This document shows positions 24,435 through 41,544 of a stretch of DNA of 64,000 nt, piece by piece (within the stretch, counting starts at the first letter, position 1; each line of letters opens with the position of its first letter). Below the pieces are notes generated by a model. It was not told where the DNA came from. It saw nothing but the letters and a program-made list of their open reading frames with translations, and ran no database searches. The stretch is from Singulisphaera sp. GP187. GTDB lineage: Bacteria; Planctomycetota; Planctomycetia; Isosphaerales; Isosphaeraceae. Position numbers and translations under genes: made by a program. The DNA is taken from the NCBI RefSeq assembly GCF_900129635.1, contig NZ_FSRB01000001.1:2457501-2521500 (forward strand), written 5' to 3'.

Positions 24435-24656
24435 GTTGAGCGATCCCTGATTCGCCTCGAGTGGTTTCCGAGGCAACCCGATCCTGAAGTGAGCAAGTCG
24501 ATTGCGTCGAGGTTGAGTGTAACCCGAACCTTCTAGGTCGGGAAGTGCCCGTCGGCCAACTTGCGACTCTTTCCCTCGAGGCTGTAGGCTGAGGGAATGA
24601 CGTCGGATTCGTCCGTGAAGGTCGCTGGTCGCGTCGTTTTAAGGAGAGCTTGGGGA

Positions 24657-27500
24657 ATGACGGATCGTCCCAACCGCGCGAAGTCGGATTCAACCTGGGT
24701 CGATCGGATCCGCGTTCAAGGCGCGCGGGTCCACAACCTCCGGAACATCGATATCGATCTGCCACGCGACCGGCTCGTGGTCTTGACGGGGGTGAGCGGC
24801 TCGGGGAAAAGCTCTCTGGCATTCGACACCCTCTACGCCGAGGGACAGCGGCGGTACATCGAAAGCCTCACCAGCTTCGCGCGCCAGTTTCTCGATCAGC
24901 TGGAGCGGCCCGACGTCGACCTGATCGAGGGCCTCCCGCCGACCGTCTCGATCGACCAGCGCTCCGGCGCGGTGAATCCTCGAAGCACCGTCGCCACGCT
25001 CACCGAGATCCACGACTATTTTCGCCTGCTCTATGCGCGCACCGGCATCCCGCACTGCCCTGGCTGCGGGCAAGCGATCCGCCGCCAGACCCCGGAGCAG
25101 ATGGTTGCAGGAGTCCTCGCCATGCGCGAGGGTCGAAAAGTCCTGGTGCTTGCCCCTTTGGTCCGGGGCCGCAAAGGCGAGCATCGCGAAGCCTTCGAGG
25201 CGATCCGCAGAGCGGGCTTGCTTCGCGCGCGGGTCGACGGCCTGATCGTCGAAATGACGGAAGACCCGCCCAAGCTCGCGAGGAACCGCACTCACCACAT
25301 TGAGGCGGTCGTCGATCGGCTCGTGGTTCGCGAGGGGATCCGGCCGAGGCTTGCCGAGAGCATCGACCTCGCCCTCAAGCTCGGTGAGGGCACCGTCATC
25401 CTTTCCGCTCAGACCGACGAGGCGTGGGACGACCTCGTGCTCAGCGTCAAATACGCCTGCCCGTCATGCGGCACCGGGTTCGAGGAACTCGAGCCGCGCA
25501 CCTTCAGCTTCAACAGCCCCCACGGCGCCTGTCCCACCTGCAACGGTCTGGGAACCCTCTCGGCCTTCGACCCCGAGCTCGTCGTGCCCGACCGCTCCCA
25601 GTCCCTTGCTGAGGGGGCGATCGCACCTTGGAGGGGCCTTCGCTCCGGTGCTCAGGACGATTTCCTCCTGGATCCAGGACTCGCCGTCCTGCTCAAACGA
25701 AGTCGGCTGACCCACAACACTCCACTCGCCGGCTGGTCGGAGAAGACCTATCGCAAGTTCTTCGCCGGTGATCCCGAGTTGGAATACGCCGGCCTGACCG
25801 CGGTGCTCGAGCTCGAGTTCGCCGCGGCGAAAACCGAGGCACGCCGGACCGCGCTCGGGCACTTCCGCGATCAGACCCCCTGCCCCGACTGCGAAGGGGC
25901 CCGGCTCCGTCCCGAGGCCCGAGCCGTGACCGTGGGCGGTCTTACGATTCATGAGCTCTTGACTCGCCCGCTCCCGGAGACTCGTGCGTTCATCGCCAAT
26001 CTCCAATTCGAGCCGGGGCTGCGGCCGATCGGACTTCCCCTCGTGCCGGAAATCATCAACCGGATCGAGTTTCTCGAGCGCGTGGGACTCGGCTATCTGA
26101 CCCTGGCACGTGGATCCGACACTCTCTCCGGCGGCGAGCTCCAACGGGTCCGGCTCGCCACTCAGATCGGCTCGGGACTGGTGGGCGTCTGCTACATCCT
26201 CGACGAACCGACGGCCGGGCTTCATCCCCGCGATACCGGAAAACTGCTGGCGAGTCTGGAACAACTCCGCGACCAGGGGAACAGCCTCGTCGTCGTCGAG
26301 CATGATGAGGCCACGATCCGGGCAGCCGACTGGCTGATCGACCTGGGGCCGGGCGCGGGGCCGGAAGGAGGGCAAATCGTCGCGACCGGACCTCCTGATG
26401 CCCTCGTCGTTGTGGGCCAGTCGGCGACGGCCGACTACCTGCGCCGCGCGGTCGCGAGCACAGTCCCCGACGCCCGGCGGCTCGCACGGAGCCCAGGGTC
26501 GATCGAGGTTGTGGGGGCGACGGATCGGAACCTCAAGGGGGTGGATGCCCGGTTCCCCCTCGGCACGCTCATCGGCGTTTCCGGGGTCAGCGGGTCGGGC
26601 AAGAGCACCTTGGTCAACGACGTGCTCGGCCGCGGTTTGCGTCGCGCGCTCGGAACCGGAGGGCCGAAACCAGGGGCTCATCAACGAATCGACGGATTGG
26701 GTTCCGTCGACAAGTTGGTTGAGATCGACCAGGCGCCGATCGGCCGTGGCCCGCGATCGACTCCGGCAACCTATACCGGTGTCTTCGACGAGATTCGCAA
26801 GGTTTTCGCCCGGACCCGCGAGGCCAAGATTCGTGGTTATCCCGCCAGCCGGTTCAGCTTCAACGTAAAAGGGGGCCGTTGCGAGGGGTGCCAGGGTCAA
26901 GGAGTCCGCAAGATCGAAATGAACTTCCTTCCCGACATGTTCGTCACTTGCGACGCGTGCGGGGGGCAGCGATACAACCGGCAGACCCTCGAAGTCCGTT
27001 TCAAGGGCCTCTCGATCGGCGATGTGCTCGACCTGCGGGTCGATGCGGCCCTCGACGTCTTCGACGCCCAGCCCAAGGTCCGCCCCGGGATCGCGGCGTT
27101 GCATGAAGCCGGGCTCGGCTACGTGACCCTCGGCCAGTCGAGCGCGACCCTCTCGGGCGGCGAAGCCCAGCGTGTGAAACTCGCCGCCGAGCTTGGCCGC
27201 CCCGCATCGGGCCGGACCTTCTACATCCTCGACGAGCCGACGACCGGGCTCCACTTCGCCGACGTCGACCGCCTCCTCAAAGTTTTGCACCGGCTCGCCG
27301 ACCTCGGAAACACCCTCGTCGTAATCGAGCACAACATCGACGTCATCAAGACCGCCGACTGGGTGATCGACCTGGGACCGGAAGGGGGCGACGGCGGCGG
27401 CCGGATCGTCGCCATGGGGACTCCGAACGACGTGGCCGAATCGCGTGAGAGTCACACCGGCCATTACCTCCGCGAACGGCTCGGCCTTCCCCCAGGCTAG
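24657..27500 (+). CDS. uvrA: Excinuclease ABC subunit A (UvrA)
   Basis: Damage-recognition ATPase of nucleotide excision repair, about 947 residues, cytoplasmic. Two ABC ATPase halves are visible: Walker [10 protein letters not shown] (45-53) with signature [15 protein letters not shown], and [10 protein letters not shown] with [15 protein letters not shown]. Zinc-finger cysteines occur as CPSCG with CPTC, and CEGC with CDACGG. A first ATG at 24597 (with GAGGGA directly before it) gives 20 extra residues. The 24657 start is preferred because AAGGAG lies 10 bp upstream and the family N-terminus follows soon after. It is transcribed divergently from the ABC operon. Confidence 0.95.
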
Positions 27501-27731
27501 GCGCGGGAACGGGTCGGGGAAGCCGGGCAACTCCCCTCTAACCAAAAAAACCGTACTCCCGGTCGTTGGAATTCAGCCCGGTTTCCCGAGCGATGATCGA
27601 CCCGCCCAAGAGGCTTTCCCAGCGATGGGAAGGCCCCGCGAGCAAACTCGTGCTGTCCACGGGACACGATCGAAGTCCCCCGAAAATCCCCGGTTCGAGC
27701 CATAAAATGGGCCGACCCAGAATTCTGATGA

Positions 27732-27759
27732 TTGACGAATGGGCGCCGTTGTCTATGAT
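27732..27759 (+). promoter_or_regulatory. Sigma70-like promoter for the TetR/RND efflux cluster
   Basis: TTGACG (27732-27737), a 16-bp spacer, then TATGAT (27754-27759). Both boxes are one mismatch from consensus. Transcription would start near 27766, immediately before or within the palindromic operator. The nearest + strand gene is the TetR regulator at 28171, followed by the efflux genes. Confidence 0.65.
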
Positions 27760-27768
27760 TTTTACACA

Positions 27769-27784
27769 GACTGACTGGTCAGTC
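27769..27784. promoter_or_regulatory. Palindromic operator, probably bound by the TetR regulator
   Basis: GACTGA-CTGG-TCAGTC is a perfect inverted repeat with 6-bp arms and a 4-bp centre. It lies about 10 bp after the -10 box, over the predicted start site. TetR-family dimers bind such palindromes, so occupancy would block transcription. The likely ligand-responsive repressor is the gene at 28171, giving autoregulation and control of the efflux genes. Confidence 0.65.
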
Positions 27785-28170
27785 CGCAACCTGAACCTGA
27801 TTCAACCCCGCCTCGTCGTGCTGATCCGGTGATGGTCTCTCGCAAGGCTCCGTGGGATGCGAGGCGACTTGTTTCCGATTGATCTCGGAAGTGAGTGAGC
27901 GACTGTTCGAGAATCCGTCCTGCCAACGGCCGCTCGCGATCCCCCCGCCGGGACGGCCCGCGTCGAATTGCTCCTCCCCCCCTTTGATTCCGGCTGAATC
28001 ACGATGGCAATTCGTGGCTCTTGGGGAAAACGTCAAGCCGACCGTGGGATCGTATAACGTGACCTGTCCTGAGGGGATGTGACCTGGGCTCGGCCCGAGT
28101 CGATCCCGTCGATCTTCCATGAGGGGGCTGAACGCAAAACCGAGTCCGTTCATGACGCGGAGCCATTGCC

Positions 28171-28878
28171 TTGAATCGCACAACCGAGAGCGGCGCGGAA
28201 CCGAAAGAGCACGACGAAGCCATCCCTTGTGGACGGCGCGAGGAAATCCTTGAGGCCGCCACAAAGCTGTTCGCCGAGCATGGTTTCTCCGACACCGTAA
28301 CGCAGGTTCTCGTGGAGCGGCTCCAAATTGGCAAAGGGACCCTTTACCGCTATTTCCCCAGCAAGCGCGAGTTGTTCCTCGCGGCCGTCGATCGGGTGAT
28401 GCGCCGGCTCCGCCAGAGCGTCGATGCGGCGATTGCGAATATTGAGAACCCGCTCGACCGCGTGGCGCGCGCCATCCTCACCTACCTGGTCTTCTTCGAG
28501 CAGCATCCTGAATTTGTTGAGCTGCTGGTCCAGGAGCGGGCGCTGTTCAAAGATCGCAAGAAGTCGACCTATTTCGAGCATCAAGACACCAATGTCCTAC
28601 GATGGCGGATCCTCTTCGGCGGGTTGATCGAGGAAGGTCGGATTCGTAAGATCCCCGTCGAACGGGTCACGGATACCATTAATAACTTGCTCTATGGGAC
28701 CATGTTCACAAATTATTTTAGCGGCCGACCCAAGCCGCCCGAGCAGCAGGCAAAAGACATTCTTGACGTGGTTTTTTACGGGATTTTGAGCGAGTCGGAG
28801 CGTGAGCGAATGGGCCGAGGGTGCGTTGACTCAAGGCCTGAGCCAGCGCCGCGGGCCGACCGTCCGCTCCAGGGATGA
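28171..28878 (+). CDS. TetR/AcrR family transcriptional regulator
   Basis: DNA-binding repressor of 235 residues. The N-terminal helix-turn-helix spans about residues 22-68: REEILEAATKLFAEHGF, then TVTQVLVERLQIGKGTLYRY, then FPSKRELFLAAVD. The C-terminal ligand-binding and dimer region is divergent, as usual. The start is a TTG, since no in-frame ATG precedes the HTH. The last 25 residues are Arg- and Pro-rich. It lies upstream of an RND adaptor and two permeases, the usual place of an efflux repressor, and behind a promoter carrying a palindromic operator. Confidence 0.92.
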   Translation: MNRTTESGAEPKEHDEAIPCGRREEILEAATKLFAEHGFSDTVTQVLVERLQIGKGTLYRYFPSKRELFLAAVDRVMRRLRQSVDAAIANIENPLDRVARAILTYLVFFEQHPEFVELLVQERALFKDRKKSTYFEHQDTNVLRWRILFGGLIEEGRIRKIPVERVTDTINNLLYGTMFTNYFSGRPKPPEQQAKDILDVVFYGILSESERERMGRGCVDSRPEPAPRADRPLQG

Positions 28879-29086
28879 ACGCGCAATGCGTCGGCTCCTC
28901 TTGAACTCCAGGGTAGGTGTACTCGAATCAGAGTTTGTCCGATCAAGGATGGGCCGAAGTCTCCGGTTTTGACGCCTTCTAGTCTCGTGAACACCGGGAA
29001 AGTTCGATTCGCAAAGGAACAACTCAGGGACACAGAATCCGAGTTGCCAGCTTATTCCGGGTGATCATCGTCGGAGCTTATTTTTT

Positions 29087-30343
29087 ATGAATCGAGCACG
29101 CGCACTCATTCTGATTCCTGCCTGTTGTCTCGCGATTCTCGGGTGCGAAGCTGAGAAGCCGAAGATGGTGCAGACCAAACCCGCCACGGTCATCGTCAGT
29201 CGAGCGATCACCGATGACGTGACCGACTATGAAGACTTCACTGGAAGAACGGAGGCGGTCTTCTCCGTCGACCTCAGGGCGCGCGTCACCGGTTACCTCG
29301 AGAAGGTCAGTTTTAAAGATGGAGACGAGGTCAAGGAAGGCGACCTCCTGTTCGAGATCGACGCTCGCCCTTATCAGGCCGAGCTCGCACGGACCGAAGC
29401 GACGATCCTTCAGGGCGAAGCCCACCTGAACCGGTTGGACGCCGACCTCCAGCGCGCCAAGAATCTCTTCAACCGAGGCAACATCAGCCGAGAAGAGTAT
29501 GATAAATACAACGGCGACCGGGCCGAGGCGCTGGCCATGGTCGGAGTCGCGATGTCGGGTCGCGACCTGGCCAAGCTCAACGTGGAATTCACCAAGATCA
29601 AGGCGCCGATCGCCGGACGGCTGAGCCGCCGCATGGTCGACCCGGGAAACCTGGTGAAAGCCGATGAGACGATCCTCACCTCGATCGTCTCGCTCGATCC
29701 GATGTATGTGAACTTTGACATTGATGAGCGAACGATCCTCAAAATCCGCCGCTTGATCCGCGAAGGCCGGGTCAAGACCCGCGCCGAGGCAGAAGTCCCC
29801 GTGTTGATCGGGCTGTCCGACGAAGACGGATTTCCCCATCGGGGCACGATCAACTTCAGTGACAACAAGGTGGATCCCAGCACCGGAACGCTCCGGGTCC
29901 GTGGGATCATCGATAATCCGAAAATCCGGGAGACAACCTCCCGAGTGCTCTCCCCGGGCCTCTTTACCAGGGTTCGGTTGCCGATCGGCGCCGCGCATAA
30001 AGAGACGCTCATCCCTGAAGATGCGATCGCCACCGACCAAGGCCGGAAATACCTCTACGTGGTCCGGGGCGAAAAGAAGAAGGGGGCCAAGAGCGATTCG
30101 GAGACCGAACAAGTCGTCATCGACCGCACCGTGAAGGTGGGACGAACGATCGGCGGGCTCCGGGTGATCGAAGAGGGTCTCAAGCCCGACGAGCTCGTGA
30201 TCGTCCGAGGGCACCAACGGGTCCGCCCGGGCGCGAAGGTCGAAACGCGACTCTGGGAGGATGCCCCTCCCCCGCCCTCCGCGGGAGACGCGCTTCAGGG
30301 GACGAGCAATCCCTCGAAGGCCGCCCAGGCGTCGCGCCAATAG
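29087..30343 (+). CDS. RND efflux membrane-fusion protein (HlyD/AcrA family), lipoprotein
   Basis: Periplasmic adaptor of 418 residues linking the inner-membrane RND pump to an outer-membrane channel. The signal peptide ends in lipobox AILGC (C20 or so), giving a lipid anchor like AcrA. A biotinyl-lipoyl-like domain contains VDLRARVTGYLEKVSFKDGD, followed by an alpha-hairpin region (about 95-160) and PIAGRLSRRMVDPGNLV. Then come beta-barrel and membrane-proximal domains. The tail is Pro/Ala-rich. It is followed by two permease genes. No TolC-like gene lies in the window, so the channel must be encoded elsewhere. Confidence 0.93.
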   Translation: MNRARALILIPACCLAILGCEAEKPKMVQTKPATVIVSRAITDDVTDYEDFTGRTEAVFSVDLRARVTGYLEKVSFKDGDEVKEGDLLFEIDARPYQAELARTEATILQGEAHLNRLDADLQRAKNLFNRGNISREEYDKYNGDRAEALAMVGVAMSGRDLAKLNVEFTKIKAPIAGRLSRRMVDPGNLVKADETILTSIVSLDPMYVNFDIDERTILKIRRLIREGRVKTRAEAEVPVLIGLSDEDGFPHRGTINFSDNKVDPSTGTLRVRGIIDNPKIRETTSRVLSPGLFTRVRLPIGAAHKETLIPEDAIATDQGRKYLYVVRGEKKKGAKSDSETEQVVIDRTVKVGRTIGGLRVIEEGLKPDELVIVRGHQRVRPGAKVETRLWEDAPPPPSAGDALQGTSNPSKAAQASRQ

Positions 30344-30534
30344 CATGGCGTCAGGAATATCATCGCGGCACGGGCTCACAAGGCACGCGCCAGCGCGTCA
30401 CGATCCACCAATCAGACGGGTCCCAGGGGCCAACGACCTCGACGTTAGCGGAAGCCGGATCGGCGTCCTGTCCTGAGCAGGGCGGGCCGAGGGCCAAGGA
30501 AGGGTGACGTCGTAACCCAGAGGGAGATTCGGCA

Positions 30535-33500
30535 TTGATCTCGCGCTTTTTCATCGATCGACCGATCTTCGCCTCGGTCCTCTCGATCGTGATCACGCTG
30601 GCAGGCGCGATCGCGCTGTTTGCGATGCCGATCGCGCTCTATCCGCCGATCTCTCCCCCGGTCGTGCAGGTGGATTGCCGCTTCCCGGGCGCCAGCGCTC
30701 AGGTCGTCGCCGAATCCGTCGCCACGCCGATCGAGGAGCAGGTCAACGGCGTCGAAGACATGATGTACATGTCGTCGCAATGCACCAACGACGGCTCGTA
30801 CAACCTCACGGTGACCTTCAAGCACGGCGTTGACCTGAACGTGGCCCAGGTCCTCGTGCAAAACCGCGTGAGCCTGGCCATCCCTCGCCTCCCTGATGTC
30901 CTCAAGCAGACCGGCGTGACCACACGCAAAAAGTCGCCCGACATCCTGATGGCGATCGCGATCAGCTCTCCTGACGGAAGCCGTGAACAGCTCTACCTGA
31001 GCAACTACGCGCTCATGCACATCAAAGACGAACTGGCACGCGTTCCGGGCGTCAGCGACGTCAACATGATGGGTCAGCGCGATTACAGCATGCGGATCTG
31101 GGTCGATCCCGAGCAGCTCGCCGCGCGCAGTATGACGGCCAGCGACGTGATCGCGGCCCTGCGTTCCCAGAACATGCAGGTCGCCACCGGCCAGATCGGT
31201 CAACCGCCGGTGCCGGACGGCCAACGAACGCAGTTGACGCTCAGCACGATGGGCCGGCTTGTCGAGGTCGAGCAATTCGAGAACGTCATCGTCCGGGCCA
31301 CGCCCGAGGGCCGGGTCGTTCGGATCAAGGATATCGCCCGCGTCGAGCTCGGCTCCAAGAACGAGGACGTCAGCGGCCGGGTCAACGGCAATCCCACCGT
31401 GAGCCTCGCTGTCTTTCAGCTCCCCGACGCCAACGCGCTTGACGTGGCCGACGTCGTCAAGGCGAAGATCGCGGAGCTTGCCGCCGACTTTCCTCCAGGC
31501 GTGAGCTACGAAATCCGCTATGACACGACTCCGTTTATTCGAGAGTCGATCGAAGAAGTCTTCAAAACCTTGCGCGAAGCGATCGTGCTCGTCGCGATCG
31601 TCGTCCTCCTCTTCCTTCAGAGCTGGCGTTCGTCGATCATCCCCCTGATCGCGGTTCCGGTGGCGATCGTCGGCACGTTCGCCGTGCTGATCGCGATGGG
31701 TTTCACCCTCAACAACCTGACCCTGTTCGGGCTGGTCCTGGCCATCGGCATCGTGGTCGATGACGCGATCGTGGTGGTCGAGGCGGTGGAGCACCACATC
31801 GAGCGCGGACTGAAACCGCGGGCGGCCACGATCAAGGCCATGGAAGAAGTTTCCGGGCCGGTCATCGCCATTGGCCTGGTCCTCTCGGCCGTCTTCGTGC
31901 CCTGCGCCTTCATCAGCGGTATCGTCGGCCAGTTTTTCCGCCAGTTCGCATTGACCATCGCCACCTCGACCTTGATCTCCACGTTCAACTCGTTGACGCT
32001 CAGCCCGGCTCTCGCTGCACTCTTGCTCCGGCCAAAAGGTCACGGGGGAAACGAGGCGTTACCTCGGCAAGCGTATGCGTTATTGGGGGGATGGCTCAGT
32101 TGGAAGTATCTCCCCGCGCTGCTCGCACCACGGCTCGTTCATCAAGAGTCGGCCGCAGCATGGGCATTGGTGGTCCTGGCCGCCGCGGCCGGCCTGACCG
32201 TGGGCTGGCTCGTCTCCAAGACTGTGAATCGGCTGCTCGGCGGCTTTTTCAGCATCTTCAACTGGGGCTTCCAACGAGGCACGGGAGCCTACACGCGAAT
32301 CGTCGGCTGGATGCTTCGGGTCTCGTTCCTCGTGTTACTCGGCTATGGTGGCCTGCTCTACCTGACCTACTGGGGCCTGAAACACACACCCGCCGGATTC
32401 ATTCCGTCGCAGGACATGGGTTACTTGCTCGTCAATGTCCAACTCCCCGACTCGGCCGCCTCGGAACGAAGCGCCGCGGTCATGAACCGGCTCGAAAAGA
32501 TCGCGCACGAGATCCCCGGGGTCAAGCACACGCAATCGACCAGTGGGATGTCGCTCTTGCTCAGCGCCAACGGATCCAACTTCGGGTCGATGTTCGTGAT
32601 CCTCGACGAGTTTTCCAAGCGGAGGACACCGAATCTCTCGAGTGACGCGATCGCCAAGCAACTCCGCGAGCGGTATGAGAGCGACGTCCCCGAGGCGATT
32701 ATGACGGTCCTCGGACCGCCCCCGGTGCGCGGAGTCGGTCGAGCGGGCGGGTTCAAGCTCATGGTCGAGGATCGCGGTGACCTCGGGTCGCGAACCTTGC
32801 AAGGTCAGACCGAGAACCTGGTCGACCAAGCGAAAAACCTCAAGGTCGAGGTCGAGACCGACACGCCCCTGGACACCCTCCAGAAGTGGTTCGGCTCCCC
32901 CAAGGCCCCGCCCAAGCAAGGGACCGAGAAGCCGGCGCTGGTCGGGCTCACGTCGGTCTTCCGCGCCAACGTGCCGCAACTCTACGCCGAGGTCAACCGC
33001 AAGGAATGCATGGCGAAAGAAGTCCAGTTGCAGGACCTGTTCGACACGCTCCGGATCTACCTCGGGTCGCTCTATGTCAATGACTTTAACCGATTCGGAC
33101 GCACCTGGCAGGTCATCGTCCAGGCGGACGCCAAGTTCCGCAACACGATCGATGACGCCAAACGGCTCAAGGTCCGCAACGCCAAGGGCACCATGGTTCC
33201 GGTGGCGGCCCTTGCGGATATCCGCGAAGACACCGGACCTCTCGTGCTCACGCGATACAATATGTATCCCGCGGCACCCGTGAATGGAAGCTCGGCTCCA
33301 GGCGTGAGCTCGGGCACCGGGATCGAACTCATGGAGCGCCTGGCCAAGGCCGAATTGCTCCCCTCCATGGCGACGGAGTGGACCGAGTTGGCCTATCTGG
33401 AGATCCAGGCGGGCAATACCGCCATGATCGTCTTCGGATTCGCCGTGGTCATGGTCTTCCTGGTCCTCGCCGCCCAGTACGAGAGCTGGTCCTTGCCCCT

Positions 33501-34254
33501 GGCCGTGATCCTCGTCGTGCCGATGTGCCTGCTCGGCTCGCTCATCGGCGTCCGCTATTCCGGCGCGGATATCAACATCTTTACGCAGATCGGGTTCGTC
33601 GTGCTGGTCGGTCTGGCGAGCAAGAACGCGATCCTGATCGTCGAGTTCTCGAAGTCGTTGCGTGAGCAAGGGAAAACACCTCGCGAGGCGACCTTGCAAG
33701 CCTGCCGGTTACGACTGCGGCCGATCGTCATGACCTCACTCGCGTTTATCCTGGGGGTCGTGCCGCTGATCACGTCCCACGGAGCAGGCGCCGAGATGAG
33801 GCGGATCCTCGGGACGACCGTCTTTAGCGGAATGATCGGGGTGACCCTCTTCGGAATTTTCCTGACCCCGGTCTTCTTTTACGTGATCGACCGGCTGAGC
33901 GGCTCCCGGCTGCTGCACCTGAAGTGGATCGAGCGGGTGAGCGAGGCGTTGCTCGGGGTCCTCTCCCTGCGGATTCTCAGAAACCTCGGCCGCCGCGCCA
34001 AACCGCGCACCACTGTCATCACCGCGCCAAGCTCGAATGGGCACGGCACCAATGGTCATGCCCCGATTCCGCTCAAGCACGAATCCAAGGAGTTGGCCAC
34101 GCTCGCTCTGGTACCGACGAATGGCTCAGGCCCCAAATCGGAACAAGCGTTGGTCGACTCCCACGGAAACGGCTCCGCGCCCCATCCAACCGTTACGCCG
34201 ACCAACGGAATGGCCCCCCATTTACACGAGACTCCGCCTACCTCGAACGGCTAG
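30535..34254 (+). CDS. RND efflux permease (HAE1 family), first of two, long C-terminal tail
   Basis: Proton-driven multidrug-type pump of 1239 residues; AcrB-like pumps have about 1040. TTG start after GAGGGAG. Proton-relay residues D409 and D410 (GIVVDDAIVVVE) and K1030 (GLASKNAILIVEF) are present. Two differences from AcrB stand out. Residues about 501-580, between helices 6 and 7, contain an insertion with a strongly hydrophobic segment (540-561). Residues from about 1120 form a cytoplasmic tail rich in Asn-Gly (NGHGTNGHA, PTNGSG, GNGSA, PTNGMA, SNG). It shares the upstream adaptor with the next permease. Confidence 0.94.
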   Translation: MISRFFIDRPIFASVLSIVITLAGAIALFAMPIALYPPISPPVVQVDCRFPGASAQVVAESVATPIEEQVNGVEDMMYMSSQCTNDGSYNLTVTFKHGVDLNVAQVLVQNRVSLAIPRLPDVLKQTGVTTRKKSPDILMAIAISSPDGSREQLYLSNYALMHIKDELARVPGVSDVNMMGQRDYSMRIWVDPEQLAARSMTASDVIAALRSQNMQVATGQIGQPPVPDGQRTQLTLSTMGRLVEVEQFENVIVRATPEGRVVRIKDIARVELGSKNEDVSGRVNGNPTVSLAVFQLPDANALDVADVVKAKIAELAADFPPGVSYEIRYDTTPFIRESIEEVFKTLREAIVLVAIVVLLFLQSWRSSIIPLIAVPVAIVGTFAVLIAMGFTLNNLTLFGLVLAIGIVVDDAIVVVEAVEHHIERGLKPRAATIKAMEEVSGPVIAIGLVLSAVFVPCAFISGIVGQFFRQFALTIATSTLISTFNSLTLSPALAALLLRPKGHGGNEALPRQAYALLGGWLSWKYLPALLAPRLVHQESAAAWALVVLAAAAGLTVGWLVSKTVNRLLGGFFSIFNWGFQRGTGAYTRIVGWMLRVSFLVLLGYGGLLYLTYWGLKHTPAGFIPSQDMGYLLVNVQLPDSAASERSAAVMNRLEKIAHEIPGVKHTQSTSGMSLLLSANGSNFGSMFVILDEFSKRRTPNLSSDAIAKQLRERYESDVPEAIMTVLGPPPVRGVGRAGGFKLMVEDRGDLGSRTLQGQTENLVDQAKNLKVEVETDTPLDTLQKWFGSPKAPPKQGTEKPALVGLTSVFRANVPQLYAEVNRKECMAKEVQLQDLFDTLRIYLGSLYVNDFNRFGRTWQVIVQADAKFRNTIDDAKRLKVRNAKGTMVPVAALADIREDTGPLVLTRYNMYPAAPVNGSSAPGVSSGTGIELMERLAKAELLPSMATEWTELAYLEIQAGNTAMIVFGFAVVMVFLVLAAQYESWSLPLAVILVVPMCLLGSLIGVRYSGADINIFTQIGFVVLVGLASKNAILIVEFSKSLREQGKTPREATLQACRLRLRPIVMTSLAFILGVVPLITSHGAGAEMRRILGTTVFSGMIGVTLFGIFLTPVFFYVIDRLSGSRLLHLKWIERVSEALLGVLSLRILRNLGRRAKPRTTVITAPSSNGHGTNGHAPIPLKHESKELATLALVPTNGSGPKSEQALVDSHGNGSAPHPTVTPTNGMAPHLHETPPTSNG

Positions 34255-34309: not shown

Positions 34310-37300
34310 ATGTTCTCACGTTTCTTTATCGATCGGCCCATCTTCGCCACGGTGCTGTCGATCGTGATCACGCTGGCCGGCGGAATCGCCGTGTTCACGC
34401 TGCCGATCGCCCAGTACCCGGACATCGCGCCTCCGACGGTGGAAGTCTCGGCCTACTACCCCGGCGCGAACGCGCAGGTCGTGGCCGATACCGTCGCGGC
34501 GCCGATCGAGCAGCAGATCAACGGCGTGGAGAACATGCTGTACATGTCGTCGCAATGCACCAACGACGGCATGTACAAGCTCACGATCACCTTCCGGATC
34601 GGCGTCGACCTGAACATGGCGCAGGTGCTCGTGCAGAACCGCGAGTCGCTGGCCGAACCGATCCTGCCCGACCTGGTCAAACGGCGTGGGGTGACGGTCA
34701 AAAAGAAGTCCCCCAGCATCCTCATGATCGTCAACCTGTTCTCGTCGGACGGGACTCGCGAGAACCTCTACCTGAGCAACTACGCCACGATCCAGCTCCG
34801 CGACGAGTTGGCTCGGCTCGAGGGCGTCGGCGATATCACCTACCTCGGCCAGCGCGACTACAGCATGCGGGTCTGGCTCGATCCGGGCAAAATGTCGTTT
34901 CGGAACCTGACCTCGAGCGACGTCACCCGCGCGATCGAACAGCAGAACGCCCAGGTCGCCGCCGGCCAGATCGGCCAGCCTCCGGTCCCGACCGGGCAAG
35001 TGTTTCAATACACCATGAGTACCCTCGGGCGACTGACCGACGCCGATCAGTTCGCCGACATGATCTTAAAAACGGATGCCGAAGGACGAATCGTTCGGCT
35101 CAAGGATGTCGCCCGGATCGAGCTCGGCGCCCAGGGCTATGATCAGAGCTGTACCCTCGACGGCAAGCCATCGGTGGCCCTCTCCATCTATCAGCGTCCC
35201 GGTTCCAACGCGCTCGAAACTGCCCGGCTCGTCCGGGTGAAAATGGAAGAACTCAAAGGCCGGTTCCCGACCGGACTCGACTACGCGATCGTCTATGACA
35301 CGACGCCGTTCATCACCGAGTCGGTCAATGAGGTGTTCAAGACCCTACGTGACGCGGTGATTTTGGTGGCCGTGGTGGTTCTCCTGTTCCTTCAGAACTG
35401 GCGGTCGGCCGTGATTCCGCTGATCGCGGTTCCGGTGGCGATCGTCGGCACGTTCGCCATCATGGCGGCACTCGGGTTCAGCCTGAATAACCTGACGCTG
35501 TTCGGCCTGGTCTTGGCGATCGGGATCGTGGTCGACGACGCCATCGTCGTCGTCGAGGCGGTGGAACACCACATCGAGTCCGGGCTCTCACCGCGTGACG
35601 CAACCGCCAAAGCGATGGAGGAGGTCTCCGGACCTGTCATCGCCATCGGCCTGGTGCTCACGGCCGTCTTCGTCCCCTGCGCCTTCATCGGTGGGATCGT
35701 CGGCCAGTTTTTCCGCCAGTTCGCACTCACCATCGCCACCTCCACCTTGATCTCGACCTTCAACTCGCTGACGCTCAGCCCGGCCCTGGCGGCCCTGCTC
35801 CTCCGTTCGCGAGAGCACGGTGGCGGCGAAGCCTTGCCTCGCCCGGCTTACGGCCTCCTCGGCGGCTGGGTCGGCTGGAAGTTCCTCACGGCCCCAATCG
35901 CCGCCTACCTGAAGACCCATCCGACGCTGTTCCCCGGCATCGATCCCGCATGGCTGGCGGTCGCTGGGAGCATTACGGCCGGTGTTCTCGGCGGCCTGAT
36001 CGTGAGCGGGATCCTCAATCGGATCTTGGGCGGGATCTTCAAAGGATTCAACGCGGGGTTTCGCGCGGCCACCGGCGCCTACACTCGGATCGTGGGTGTG
36101 ATGCTCCGCGGAACCTTCGTCGTCCTGCTCGGCTACGGCGGCCTGCTCTATCTGACCTACTACGGCTTCGCCCATACGCCAACCGGCTTCATCCCGACCC
36201 AGGACAAGGGCTATCTGCTCGTCAACGTCCAAATGCCCGACTCAACCTCCCTGGAACAGACCCAGCGCGTGATGCAGCAGATCGAGCTGGCCTCGGCCAA
36301 GGTGAAGGGGGTCAACCATACCGTTGCGATCGCCGGGCAGTCGATCTTGCTCAACGCCAACGCGCCCAACTTCGGCGCCATGTACGTCATGCTTGACGAC
36401 TTCGTGCATCGCGAATCTCATGAACTCTCGGGAGATGCGATCGCCGCCAAGCTTCAAACCGTGCTTCAGGACGAGATCCAGGACGGCCTCATCAACATCT
36501 TCGGGGCGCCCCCGATCGAAGGGCTTGGCACAGCGGGCGGGTTCAAGCTCGTGATCGAAGACCGCGGCGATACGGGGCTCGACTCACTCCAATCGGCGGC
36601 CGATCGGATCGTGGGTGAGGGCACGAACACCGTGGGACTTGAAGGCCTGTTCACCAGCTTCCGAGCGAATACGCCTTGGCTCTTCCTCGACATCGACCGG
36701 AACAAGGTCGAGACCATGGGCGTCGCGACGAGCGAGGTCTTCAACACCTTGCAAGTTTACCTCGGTTCGCTCTACGTCAACGACTTCAACAAGTTCGGCC
36801 GCACCTGGCAGGTCAACGTCCAGGGCGACTCGAACTACCGCAAACAGATCTCCGACCTCAAACAACTGAAGATCCGCAACCGGAGCGGCGGCATGGCACC
36901 ACTCGGGGCGATGGCGGATATCCGTGATATGAACGGGCCTGTCCTGGTCATGCGTTACAATATGTATCCGGCCGCCGCCATCAACGGCAACCCGGCCCCC
37001 GGCGTGAGCTCCGGCCAGGCGATCAACCTGATGGAAAAGGTCGCCAAGGACGAGCTCCCGCAATCGATGCGTTCCGAATGGACCGAGCTCGCACTCTTGC
37101 AGCTCGAGACCGGGTCGACGGCGATGATGGTGTTCGTGCTCGCCGTCGTGCTCGTCTTCCTGGTTCTCGCCGCCCAGTATGAGAGTTGGTCGCTCCCCTT
37201 CTCGGTCATCCTGGTCGTGCCGATGTGCTTGCTCTGCTCGGTCGCGGGTGTGCTCTTCACAAAGATGGACATCAACATCTTTACTCAGGTTGGCTTCGTC

Positions 37301-37681
37301 GTCCTCGTCGGCCTGGCTTGTAAGAATGCCATCTTGATTGTCGAGTTCGCCAAGTCGAGACGAGACGCGGGAGTCCCGCGCCGCGAAGCGACCCTCGAGG
37401 CCTGCGCCTTGCGGCTCCGGCCGATCATGATGACGTCGTTCGCCTTCATCCTCGGTGTCGTGCCGCTGGTTCTCTCCGAAGGGGCGGGAGCTGAAATGCG
37501 CCGAACGCTGGGAACCGCCGTGTTCAGCGGTATGCTCGGCGTCACCCTGTTCGGGATCTTCCTCACTCCCGTCTTCTACTTCGTGATCCAGTGGTTCAAC
37601 GACCGGTTCTCCAAGCCCGAGAGCCCGATCGATCCCGAAGACGATGAGACCGAGGACGTCGAGGGCATCGGGGCGCACTGA
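34310..37681 (+). CDS. RND efflux permease (HAE1 family), second of two
   Basis: Inner-membrane pump of 1123 residues, clearly homologous to the preceding permease over its full length and probably a gene duplicate. Proton-relay D409-D410 and K1005 are conserved. It has a comparable insertion between helices 6 and 7 (about residues 501-585), containing AWLAVAGSITAGVLGGLIVSG, and a short acidic C-terminus in place of the long tail. It starts 55 bp after the first pump with AGAGG upstream. It may work as a separate homotrimer or form mixed trimers as in MdtBC; the sequence does not decide. Confidence 0.94.
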   Translation: MFSRFFIDRPIFATVLSIVITLAGGIAVFTLPIAQYPDIAPPTVEVSAYYPGANAQVVADTVAAPIEQQINGVENMLYMSSQCTNDGMYKLTITFRIGVDLNMAQVLVQNRESLAEPILPDLVKRRGVTVKKKSPSILMIVNLFSSDGTRENLYLSNYATIQLRDELARLEGVGDITYLGQRDYSMRVWLDPGKMSFRNLTSSDVTRAIEQQNAQVAAGQIGQPPVPTGQVFQYTMSTLGRLTDADQFADMILKTDAEGRIVRLKDVARIELGAQGYDQSCTLDGKPSVALSIYQRPGSNALETARLVRVKMEELKGRFPTGLDYAIVYDTTPFITESVNEVFKTLRDAVILVAVVVLLFLQNWRSAVIPLIAVPVAIVGTFAIMAALGFSLNNLTLFGLVLAIGIVVDDAIVVVEAVEHHIESGLSPRDATAKAMEEVSGPVIAIGLVLTAVFVPCAFIGGIVGQFFRQFALTIATSTLISTFNSLTLSPALAALLLRSREHGGGEALPRPAYGLLGGWVGWKFLTAPIAAYLKTHPTLFPGIDPAWLAVAGSITAGVLGGLIVSGILNRILGGIFKGFNAGFRAATGAYTRIVGVMLRGTFVVLLGYGGLLYLTYYGFAHTPTGFIPTQDKGYLLVNVQMPDSTSLEQTQRVMQQIELASAKVKGVNHTVAIAGQSILLNANAPNFGAMYVMLDDFVHRESHELSGDAIAAKLQTVLQDEIQDGLINIFGAPPIEGLGTAGGFKLVIEDRGDTGLDSLQSAADRIVGEGTNTVGLEGLFTSFRANTPWLFLDIDRNKVETMGVATSEVFNTLQVYLGSLYVNDFNKFGRTWQVNVQGDSNYRKQISDLKQLKIRNRSGGMAPLGAMADIRDMNGPVLVMRYNMYPAAAINGNPAPGVSSGQAINLMEKVAKDELPQSMRSEWTELALLQLETGSTAMMVFVLAVVLVFLVLAAQYESWSLPFSVILVVPMCLLCSVAGVLFTKMDINIFTQVGFVVLVGLACKNAILIVEFAKSRRDAGVPRREATLEACALRLRPIMMTSFAFILGVVPLVLSEGAGAEMRRTLGTAVFSGMLGVTLFGIFLTPVFYFVIQWFNDRFSKPESPIDPEDDETEDVEGIGAH

Positions 37682-37758
37682 GCTCGAAGCGGCCCGGCCG
37701 AAAACTCCTATTTTCTCGCTCGCCTTCCGCTGATTGAGTCTAACGCCAACTTATTGCA

Positions 37759-37850
37759 AGTCAGAAAAGTAATGCACGCATGTTGCAGCCCCCAGGGGCT
37801 GCAAGAAACCCACCGACCGGGAGGATTTCGCGTGCATTCCTTTTCTGACT
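37759..37850. repeat. Nested palindromic repeat at a convergent junction
   Basis: Outer arms AGTCAGAAAAGTAATGCACGC (37759-37779) and GCGTGCATTCCTTTTCTGACT (37830-37850) pair with one mismatch in 21. Inside lies a second palindrome, TGCAGCCCCCAGGGGCTGCA, at about 37784-37803. The element fills the gap between the second RND permease and the cytochrome gene. It could work as a two-way terminator. The outer arm sequence recurs near 19020-19050. Confidence 0.8.
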
Positions 37851-37859
37851 CTCGAGAGT

Positions 37860-38513
37860 TCAGTCAGGAACCACGGCCCCCTTCTCGACCCACTCGCGCA
37901 TTTTCTTGACGAACTCGGCGTGCGAGAGCGGCGGCCTGGTACGACCATCTCCCGGATCCCATCCACCAAGGACAAGCTTGTCCTCGGTGACGTGGTGGAG
38001 CAACTGCTCCAGCGTCTTGTTCCCGTTCGTCTTCGGGTCCTTCAATTGTCGAGCGAGCTCGCCAGGCGTCTTGCCCTGGAAAACGAGCGGCATCTCAGGA
38101 GAGGGGAGGTGCCAGTTCGGATTGCCGGGAGGCATGTTATCGCCTGCCAGGTTCCGCTCTTGATGACAGTTGGCACACTTGAGCGCATACAGTCCTTTGC
38201 CGTCCGGCCCGCGCTTGACGTTCTGGGCATGCAGGTGGCTATCGTCCCCTTGGAGGGGAATGTCTCCCGCCGGGTGGCAGTTCATGCAACGTGGGTGCAT
38301 CAGAACCTTGTACGCTGCGAGAAAGGCCGCGCGCGAGTCCTCCTCGTCACCCTTGCCATTGCCTTCGCGATTGCCGATACCAGGGTCATCAGCTTTTGAC
38401 GGATTCACATCATGAAAACAGAGTAGTCCACAAAATATTGCGGTGAGAGCCAATGTTGTTGTGGGTATGAGGCGCCTCAGCCGAATGTGCCTTCGTTCGT
38501 CAGGCAGCTCCAT
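37860..38513 (-). CDS. Exported diheme c-type cytochrome of the IorAB-like operon
   Basis: Periplasmic electron-transfer protein of 217 residues. ATG 38513 has GGAGG 9 bp upstream. A signal-like hydrophobic stretch (about residues 19-38) precedes a charged spacer. Two heme-binding motifs follow: CMNCH (C76, C79, H80) and CANCH (C113, C116, H117). The sequence RGPDGKGLYALKCANCH, then NMPPGNPNWHLP, matches my memory of proteins often labelled 'isoquinoline 1-oxidoreductase subunit' beside IorAB-type genes. It starts 31 bp after the molybdopterin subunit, so it probably takes electrons from that enzyme. Confidence 0.85.
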   Translation of the reverse strand: MELPDERRHIRLRRLIPTTTLALTAIFCGLLCFHDVNPSKADDPGIGNREGNGKGDEEDSRAAFLAAYKVLMHPRCMNCHPAGDIPLQGDDSHLHAQNVKRGPDGKGLYALKCANCHQERNLAGDNMPPGNPNWHLPSPEMPLVFQGKTPGELARQLKDPKTNGNKTLEQLLHHVTEDKLVLGGWDPGDGRTRPPLSHAEFVKKMREWVEKGAVVPD

Positions 38514-38544
38514 CACGAGTCTCCTCCCGCCGGGGCCAGGCTAG

Positions 38545-40713
38545 CTAGGCTCTTTTCAGATCTTCGGGACGGATCGGCAACCGACGCACTCGCTTACCCG
38601 TAGCGGCAAAAATGGCGTTGGCCAACGCAGGAGCCACCGGCGGAACGCCGGGTTCGCCCACGCCGCCCATCTTGTCCGTCGTGGGCACGATGTGGACTTC
38701 AACAACGGGCATTTCATTCATCCGCAAGATCGGATAGTCATGAAAGTTGCGTTGCTGGACCCGGCCGTTCTCGAATGTGAGCTCACCGTAGAGCGCCGCG
38801 GTGAGTCCGAACGCGATACAGCTCTCCATCTGGGCCCGCACGGCGTCCGGGTTTACGGTGGGGCCACAATCGATCCCGCAGACGACTCGATGAATGCGGA
38901 TCTTGCCTTCGTCGGAGACCGAGACTTCCGCCACGTGGGCGACGAAACTTCCGAACGACTCATGCACGGCCAAGCCGCGTCCGTGTCCCTCGGGGAGCGG
39001 CTCGCCCCAGCCCGCCTTCTCGGCGGCGAGCTCAAGCACCCGCTTGTGGCGTGGATGGTTTCCGAGCAACGAGCGTCTGAGCTCCAATGGGTCTTTGCCC
39101 GCGGCATGCGCCAGTTCGTCCAAGAAACTCTCGACCACGAACGCAGTGTGAGTATGCCCCACCGAGCGAAACCAGAGCGTGGGGACGCCCCCGGGCGCGA
39201 TCTGCCAGTCGACGCGGAGGTTGGGAACGTCATAAGGAAGGTCGGCGGCCCCTTCCACGGCCGTGTCGTCGACCCCATCTTTGACGATGACTGACTCGAA
39301 CGGCGTCCCGACAATGAAGGACTGACAGACGATCCGATGCTCCCAGGCCACCGGTTTGCCATCCGCGGTCAGACCGCCGCGGATCGCGTGCGACGCCGCG
39401 GGCCGGTAGTATCCACCTCGGATATCATCTTCACGCGTCCAGATGACTTTGACCGGCGCCTTGACGGCCTGGGAAAGTTGCACGGCTTCGAGCACGAAGT
39501 GACTGTCGAGGACCGCGCGCCGGCCAAATCCACCGCCAAGCAAGGTCGTGTGGATCTTGACTTGTGAAGGCTTGAGTCCAGTGGCCTTCGCCGTGGCGTC
39601 GCGATCAAACGTTTGGGCTTGGGTACCGGTCCAGACGTCGCAACCGTCCGTACGCACGTCGGCCACACAGTTGAGCGGCTCCATGGTCGCGTGGGCGAGG
39701 TAGGGGAGTTCGTAAAACGCGTCGAGCGTTTTTGCGGCCGCGGCCATCCCGGCGGCGACATCGCCCGCTTGTTTGGCCACGGCCCCGGGCTGCTTGGCGA
39801 GCTCGGCATAGTGGGCGCGCTGGGTCCGGCTGTTGAGAGTCGCCAGCGGGCCCTCGTCCCAGTCGACCTCCAGGGCGGCACGCCCGAGTTTGGCGGCCCA
39901 GAAGCCGTCGGCCACGACCGCGACCCCGCGGTCGATTTCGACGACGTGCCGCACCCCAGGCACGGCTTTGGCTTTCTCACCGTTCCAGCGCTTCGCCTTG
40001 CCGCCGAAAACAGGGGGGCGAAGCACGAGCGCGACCAGCATTCCCGGAACGCTGACGTCGAGACCGAAAACCGCCGTCCCATTCGTCTTCTCGGGGGTAT
40101 CCAGCCGCTTCGTCGCCTTGCCGATGAGCGTGAAGTTCTTGGGATCCTTCAGCGTTACGTCCTTCGGCGGAGTCAGCCGCGACGCCTTCGCCACAAGCTG
40201 GCCGAACGAGAGTCGCTGCCCCGAATCCCGATGGACCACCGCACCGTTCTCCGCCTTGCAGGTTGAGGCGTTGACCTTCCAGGTGTCGGCAGCCGCAGTG
40301 ATCAGCATCGCCCGGGCCGTCGCTCCCGCCTTGCGGAGTCGGTCCCACTCCGTCCAGGTGCTCGTGCTCCCGCCCGTCATTTGCGTGCCGTAGAGCGTGT
40401 GATTATAGGCAGGGTCGACCGGCGCAGCCTCGGCGTGAACCTTACTCCAATCGGCGTCGAGCTCCTCGGCCACAATCATCGACAGTCCGTTATAGACCCC
40501 CTGCCCCATCTCGGCGTGATTGATCAGCACGGTCACCGACTCATCGGCACCGATCCGGACAAACGCATTGGCCTCGAACGAAGCCACTCGCTCCTCGGCC
40601 GCCGCGACCTGCCTGGGTGTTAAGGGGAGGTGAACGCCGAGGACCAATCCCCCGCCCCCCAACAGACTTGTTCGGAGGAAACCACGCCGGCTGAGATTGA
40701 GGACCTCGCTCAT
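38545..40713 (-). CDS. Molybdopterin-binding aldehyde/xanthine dehydrogenase-family large subunit (IorB-like), Tat-exported
   Basis: Catalytic subunit of a molybdenum hydroxylase, 722 residues from 40713, where AAGGAGGG precedes the ATG. A twin-arginine signal is present ([11 protein letters not shown]9-R10), so it is exported folded to the periplasm. Family stretches include [38 protein letters not shown] and [20 protein letters not shown], the last being the conserved GxGExG region with the catalytic Glu. The start overlaps the stop of the 2Fe-2S subunit gene (ATGA). The substrate is an aldehyde or N-heterocycle by family; which one is unknown. Confidence 0.92.
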
Positions 40714-41180
40714 TTGCCCTCCTTCTTGACCGTGATCTCGGCCGCCCGGTGAATCGCGCGCCGGATCCGCGGATAGGTTCCACAACGGCAGAGATTACCG
40801 GTCATGGAATCGTCGATATCCGCGTCGGTGGGATTGGGATTCTCGCGCAGCAGGACTGCGGCGGACATGATCTGACCCGACTGACAATACCCGCACTGCG
40901 GAACGTCTTCCGCGATCCAGGCCTCTTGCAGAGGGTGTCTGTGATCGGTCGAAAGACCTTCGATCGTGACCACTTCTTTGCCGACAGCACGCGAAACGGG
41001 GGTGACGCACGAGCGGATCGCCTCCCCGTCAAGATGGACGGTGCAGACACCGCAAAGCGCCATGCCACAGCCAAACTTCGTCCCCGTCAATCCGAGTGTT
41101 TCCCGGATCACCCAGAGCAGCGGCGTGTCCGGGCTGACATCGACCAAGTGGAGCTTGCCGTTCACTTTCAGCTCGAGCAT
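40710..41180 (-). CDS. (2Fe-2S)-binding small subunit of the molybdenum hydroxylase (IorA-like)
   Basis: 156-residue iron-sulfur subunit carrying two [2Fe-2S] clusters between the molybdopterin subunit and its acceptor. The N-terminal plant-type ferredoxin domain has C38, C43, C46 and C58 ([16 protein letters not shown]). The C-terminal helical domain has C96, C99, C131 and C133 (CGYCQSGQ and [11 protein letters not shown]). The start at 41180 follows GGAAGGGG, and the longer open frame upstream is not protein-like. There is no signal peptide; it is probably carried out by the Tat signal of the large subunit. It is first in a three-gene operon. Confidence 0.94.
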
Positions 41181-41544
41181 CGTCACGACCCCTTCCCGAG
41201 TCGATTCGAATCGATTCGCAAGCCCATCCCAGGAAGCCACGTCCCTTTGCGACGGTCCCACGTACCCATGTCTCTCCAAGGGAGATTTTAATCGACGTCG
41301 ATGGGTCACCGCCACACTTCTTCGCCGGGCTCGGACGTCCGTCGCCATAATCTCCTTTGCCTTCTGACGACTCGGAACCACACACCATCTGAAGTGATGA
41401 CTCACTCGAACTGCCAATGCGAACTCGCCGGTTGCGCGGTGTGTCCCAAGAATCAGGCTTCATGCGTCCGACCTCGGTTAAAGACTCTGCTGCAATCCAC
41501 ACTTAATCGCCACCACATGCATTGGGCTGCTATCGAGAAACCAC
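41181..41544. other. Divergent intergenic region, no gene seen
   Basis: 364 bp between the molybdenum hydroxylase operon (-) and a hypothetical gene (+). It must hold promoters in both directions. No palindrome, riboswitch-like fold or convincing small ORF was noticed. Confidence 0.4.

Follow-up and report, generated by a model that had tools for sequence, protein, structure and literature searches.

The segment at positions 27732-27784 of a 64,000-nt stretch of Singulisphaera sp. GP187 DNA (the window) very probably represents, judging from its sequence and that of its relatives, the autoregulated promoter-operator of an operon encoding a TetR-family regulator, a periplasmic adaptor and two RND permeases (tetR-MFP-RND1-RND2). 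The promoter is composed of a -35 hexamer TTGACG (27732..27737, plus strand) and, after a 16-nt spacer, a -10 hexamer TATGAT (27754..27759, plus strand), both identical in S. acidiphila DSM 18658, which shares the operator as well and is the one other member of the genus among the relatives searched. Together they match 10 of the 12 consensus positions, and the near-consensus promoter of the original prediction is thus present at 27732-27759. A scan of the region 26500-32000 revealed two promoter-like sites (0.7 in shuffles), of which TTGACG-16-TATGAT scored higher and the other lies on the minus strand; no plus-strand terminator-like sites were detected in the same region. As a pair of hexamers spaced by 16-18 nt and kept in relatives, the site is classified as a sigma-70 promoter. 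Transcription would start at about 27766, approximately 7 nt past the -10 hexamer, and the palindrome would then occupy positions of about +3 to +18.

The palindrome that had been predicted to follow this promoter was also found. The sequence GACTGACTGGTCAGTC at 27769-27784 has perfect 7-bp arms, GACTGAC and GTCAGTC, flanking a central TG, and constitutes the predicted TetR operator (GACTGAC-TG-GTCAGTC, 27769..27784, listed without strand). Its inner 14-mer ACTGACTGGTCAGT has a single exact occurrence in the 10.69-Mb genome, and further copies of the palindrome with fewer than three mismatches were not found within the window. The distance from the end of the palindrome to the TTG codon at 28171 is 386 nt. 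This codon is the sole possible start of tetR, as the upstream frame is open for just five codons (240 versus 235 aa), and in transcripts from this promoter the gap would therefore form an untranslated leader.

Conservation of the palindrome was analyzed in two sets of relatives. The first set comprised 70 loci of TetR-protein relatives, from which 11 were left out (seven with duplicate upstream regions and four lacking upstream DNA); of the 59 loci kept, two motif-less ones below 40% identity stand outside the 57 counted. The strict motif AC[TGC]GACNNGTC[AGC]GT, sought within 500 nt upstream of the regulator, was present in 51 of these 57 distinct relatives (identity of at least 40%), whereas 100 dinucleotide-preserving shuffles gave a mean of 0.03 and a maximum of one of 57. 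Among the 51 carriers, the 14-mer is preceded by G in 50 and followed by C in 44, and a promoter matching at least 9 of 12 positions directly precedes the operator in 42, as compared with 2.0% of shuffles. Chance alone can produce palindromes and sequences that resemble promoters, and the scanned promoter sites are consensus matches only; nevertheless, the recurrence in 51 of 57 relatives against a shuffle mean of 0.03 argues against a palindrome that arose accidentally beside such a promoter-like sequence. That explanation, already refuted by conservation and further opposed by the covariation of the operator with the HTH described below, has a negligible probability.

For the larger set, a search across the class added 92 loci among the matches listed, 80 of the matches without loci being fetched; 28 of the 162 loci were left out (22 duplicates, four with short upstream regions and two without a hit), resulting in 134 distinct relatives. 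The core C.GAC..GTC.G was found upstream in 120 of the 134 (among the matches listed), including 20 of 22 relatives with at least 60% identity, 62 of 66 with 50-60%, 26 of 32 with 45-50%, 12 of 13 with 40-45% and 0 of 1 below 40%, again among the matches listed. The same promoter threshold of at least 9 of 12 positions was reached at 77 of the 120 sites among the matches listed, versus 2.2% of mononucleotide shuffles. The core was absent from 14 of the 134 relatives (among the matches listed), two of them at least 60% identical to the window regulator: one (L061) has one arm changed, and the other (L062) has just about 200 nt of upstream DNA. Near the 28 other TetR genes of the genome (approximately 1.5 kb on each side) only one core motif was detected, about 1.4 kb before an HTH. 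The original prediction had made conservation of the palindrome with the regulator its test, and the palindrome is indeed kept (51/57 for the strict motif; 120/134 for the core, among the matches listed). These comparisons support its interpretation as an evolutionarily conserved, predicted TetR operator, placed so that it could block a sigma-70 promoter.

The regulator itself (28171..28878, plus strand; 235 aa, TTG start) contains a TetR_N domain at residues 26-72, with a PF00440 score of 59.9 bits against a gathering threshold of 24. Its scores with the NCBIfam equivalog models of AcrR and MtrR were 24.4 of the 271 bits and 23 of the 280 bits required, respectively, and it was not assigned to either. 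The half-sites of its operators differ at one base, and the 120 sites among the matches listed were divided into T/T (64), G/G (28), T/G (25) and other (3) types. We calculated the mutual information between the number of T half-sites and each of the protein alignment columns 22-74. Column 44 ranked first, exceeding the mean of the shuffles by 0.54 bits (z 21.6), followed by column 43 with 0.35. Among the matches listed, proteins with Thr44 have two, one or no T half-sites in 40, 14 and 1 cases, and those with Met44 in 20, 2 and 0; the respective numbers are 1, 4 and 21 for Val44, 1, 5 and 7 for Leu44, and 2, 2 and 0 for Ile44. In a tree-aware null model, where the tree was built without the HTH and the number of operator changes was held equal, one of 5000 random placements of operator changes equaled the observed association under either definition of operator type, to be read with the facts that the tree carries just six residue-class changes and that the grouping of T/M versus V/L/I was made after seeing the data. 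This covariation of residue 44 with one operator base ties the regulator family to the site, and the link provides a small natural experiment on the drift of TetR specificity. In an ungapped alignment, residue 44 falls on Thr27 of Tn10 TetR, next to Arg28. A table of contacts in an AmtR-DNA model places the Thr27 equivalent at the interface and has the Arg28 equivalent touching a guanine ring (PMC2723105), and alanine at Thr27 or Arg28 reduces repression by TetR, according to another report (PMC7102968).

The genes downstream bear out the efflux cluster that had been predicted behind the TetR regulator, as the order tetR-MFP-RND1-RND2 is accompanied by permease scores above domain and subfamily model thresholds. 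Profile searches identified a MexE/OqxA-like RND periplasmic adaptor (MFP; 29087..30343, plus strand) and two HAE-1 type RND permeases, RND1 (30535..34254, plus strand) and RND2 (34310..37681, plus strand). The permeases scored 1075 and 1093 bits with PF00873, and 1314 and 1351 bits with NF000282 (cut-off 1250); both also passed TIGR00915. The gene order is kept in all six Isosphaeraceae regions, and a homologue of the adaptor or permease adjoins the regulator in 28 of 40 loci from genome contigs and in 27 of 30 from whole genomes. Each of the tandem permeases has its own best counterpart in 6/6 of these Isosphaeraceae regions (60-93% identity for RND1 and 72-96% for RND2), which points to an old pair that might work together as a mixed pump, in the manner of MdtBC. 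By eye, both permeases seem to have an extra hydrophobic stretch mid-protein, after an ALLLR motif, relative to AcrB. At four loci (L013, L014, L016 and L043), the operator is kept although no homologue of the adaptor or of a permease lies within 4 kb, and the targets of the regulator may be different genes at these loci.

An outer-membrane factor gene was not detected directly after the pump (37682-41500). The genes of this interval are on the other strand; by eye, one appears to encode a cytochrome-like protein and others the subunits of a molybdopterin-type oxidoreductase. An element of about 90 nt past RND2 (37759-37850) has 21-nt inverted terminal arms that are 95% complementary; the genome matches it, in part or in full, at 12 places, which would make it either a dispersed repeat of the MITE kind or a shared terminator.

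Under the proposed mechanism, sigma-70 RNA polymerase would initiate near 27766, and a TetR dimer would bind GGACYGACNNGTCRGTCC just past the -10 hexamer, over the first transcribed bases, sterically blocking initiation or promoter escape for tetR and the pump genes. Ligand-induced release from DNA is general behavior of the TetR family, and by this analogy a pump substrate accommodated in the C-terminal domain of the regulator would free the operator. The tight repression and ligand induction ascribed to the cluster are putative features of this scheme, in which the pump genes are presumably co-transcribed with tetR. The gap of 208 nt between tetR and the adaptor gene leaves room for the pump genes to have their own promoter of a different type, and planctomycete promoters need not match the scanned consensus. 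It is nonetheless unlikely that the operator serves mainly tetR while MFP-RND expression is driven by a further, unrecognized promoter in the 208-nt gap, given that the scan found no promoter-like site there and that most loci have a single operator, located before tetR, with pump genes following co-directionally.

Such an autoregulated promoter-operator is a known kind of switch that, by analogy, would act in the same way as TetR-type local repressors of RND pumps do. It resembles AcrR, MtrR and NalC in the TetR_N domain, in the location of the regulatory gene beside an adaptor-permease operon, and in the palindrome at the promoter. Unlike AcrR and MtrR, the window regulator scores far below the NCBIfam equivalog cut-offs and has its own operator sequence. 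Furthermore, acrR is divergent from acrAB, whereas the window tetR is co-directional with, and first in, the pump cluster. The adaptor is most similar to those of the MexEF/OqxAB pumps, as its best-scoring models are those of MexE (320 bits, cut-off 714) and OqxA (280 bits, cut-off 835), but it is below both cut-offs, and the window cluster differs in having two tandem permeases with no outer-membrane factor gene seen adjoining.

Two TetR-family repressors of Thermus thermophilus, TTHA0167 (SbtR), with the site TGACYrnnyRGTCA, and TTHB023 (PfmR), with a 16-mer palindrome, have GACY-containing half-sites (PMC7022988). These are related to those of the window operator but spaced differently from GACYGACNNGTCRGTC, and the TTHB023 sites are located at fatty-acid biosynthesis promoters, not at an RND pump. 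Literature matches to the operator letters were unrelated, judging by their titles and abstracts, and a published operator for a planctomycete pump regulator was not found in the open-access literature searched. A concrete candidate operator that can be tested by gel shift is now at hand for such a regulator.

The leader between the operator and tetR (27785..28170, plus strand; 386 nt) has a length that, from the distances in relatives, is specific for Singulisphaera. The operator and the residue-22 codon are 464 nt apart in the window and 458 nt apart in S. acidiphila, against a median of about 110 nt in the larger set (111.5 nt, with 81 of 120 sites within 130 nt, among the matches listed). 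Of this distance, 63 nt belong to the gene itself, and in relatives with distances of 93-97 nt the operator would stand about 30 nt ahead of a start that gives a protein of equal length. Such a short spacing prevails among the relatives, as compared with about 390 nt in the window and S. acidiphila. After these two Singulisphaera genomes, which alone have the extra leader, the next longest distance is 313 nt (120 sites, among the matches listed). The unusually long leader noted in the original prediction is therefore real as a length, but it belongs to two Singulisphaera genomes only among the 120 sites listed (the next being at 313 nt), rather than to the system as a whole.

Parts of the leader are similar between the two species: a block of 144 nt after the operator (27789..27932, plus strand) is 76% identical to S. 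acidiphila in a pairwise comparison, and the last 55 nt are 80% identical, with a divergent middle part that aligns poorly. This similarity could suggest a conserved Singulisphaera regulatory element, either a leader RNA or an upstream ORF, with post-transcriptional control. We regard such an element as improbable, because the predicted fold of the leader is no more stable than that of shuffled sequences in the window or in S. acidiphila, and because the small ORFs present in the leader include none that is evidently common to S. acidiphila. An Rfam search of 27700-28200 gave nothing at the gathering score, the single match being far below its threshold and on the other strand; with the shuffle-level fold energies, this led us to reject a structured leader RNA. 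A dispersed repeat was likewise rejected, as the leader has one copy in its own genome. Outside S. acidiphila, just a 30-nt match was found in one of 45 family genomes. Upstream of the promoter lies uvrA (24597-27500; named from sequence), and a uvrA match was found only beside the Singulisphaera regulators among the loci examined. We treat the long leader as a lineage-specific expansion beside uvrA that is not part of the ancestral switch; the expansion is possibly linked to this position.

Additional targets of the operator were sought with a degenerate palindrome in 59 genomes, and a chosen set of the second exact sites found was examined. At two loci (L118 and L119), the second site is located directly before another RND adaptor gene. 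At six others (L120-L125), it precedes an uncharacterized protein, for which a Pfam match was not obtained in L121, L122, L124 and L125. This protein (L122:2216-2950; L137-L145) has 11 matches in nine of 45 Isosphaeraceae genomes, and in nine of the 11 the operator lies approximately 35-70 nt upstream; the other two are a second copy and a fragment. Since six of the nine genomes had led to the protein, the independent confirmations are those from G059, G060 and G061 only (3/3). The protein was not found in the genome of the window or in S. acidiphila. From its low-complexity sequence and a LEER..PA motif, one may guess that it is secreted or located at the surface, and the second target provides a first functional context for it. 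In the window's genome, the degenerate pattern gave three sites in all versus two for the reversed pattern. Sites C3:1041430 and C5:4635172 were rejected as further targets, being inside or near unrelated ORFs, and the near-matches L002 and L008 were rejected for not fitting the conserved core.

We tentatively propose, as a reading somewhat less probable than its negation, that the operon is one member of an efflux regulon long established in planctomycetes, with an operator code able to evolve, where Thr/Met versus Val/Leu at residue 44 would correspond to T versus G at the third half-site base. In three Isosphaeraceae genera, the uncharacterized protein would be co-controlled, coupling the pump to a possible cell-surface change, and the Singulisphaera leader would be an added layer.

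An aquaporin-family gene was observed near the uncharacterized protein in L122, L123 and L124. The same operator also occurs at two loci (L127 near 1873 and L130 near 3002) whose TetR proteins are only 26% and 32% identical, suggesting that the operator type is wider than the regulator family studied here; in their neighborhood are what by eye looks like an adaptor of the EmrA type, and an RND pump.
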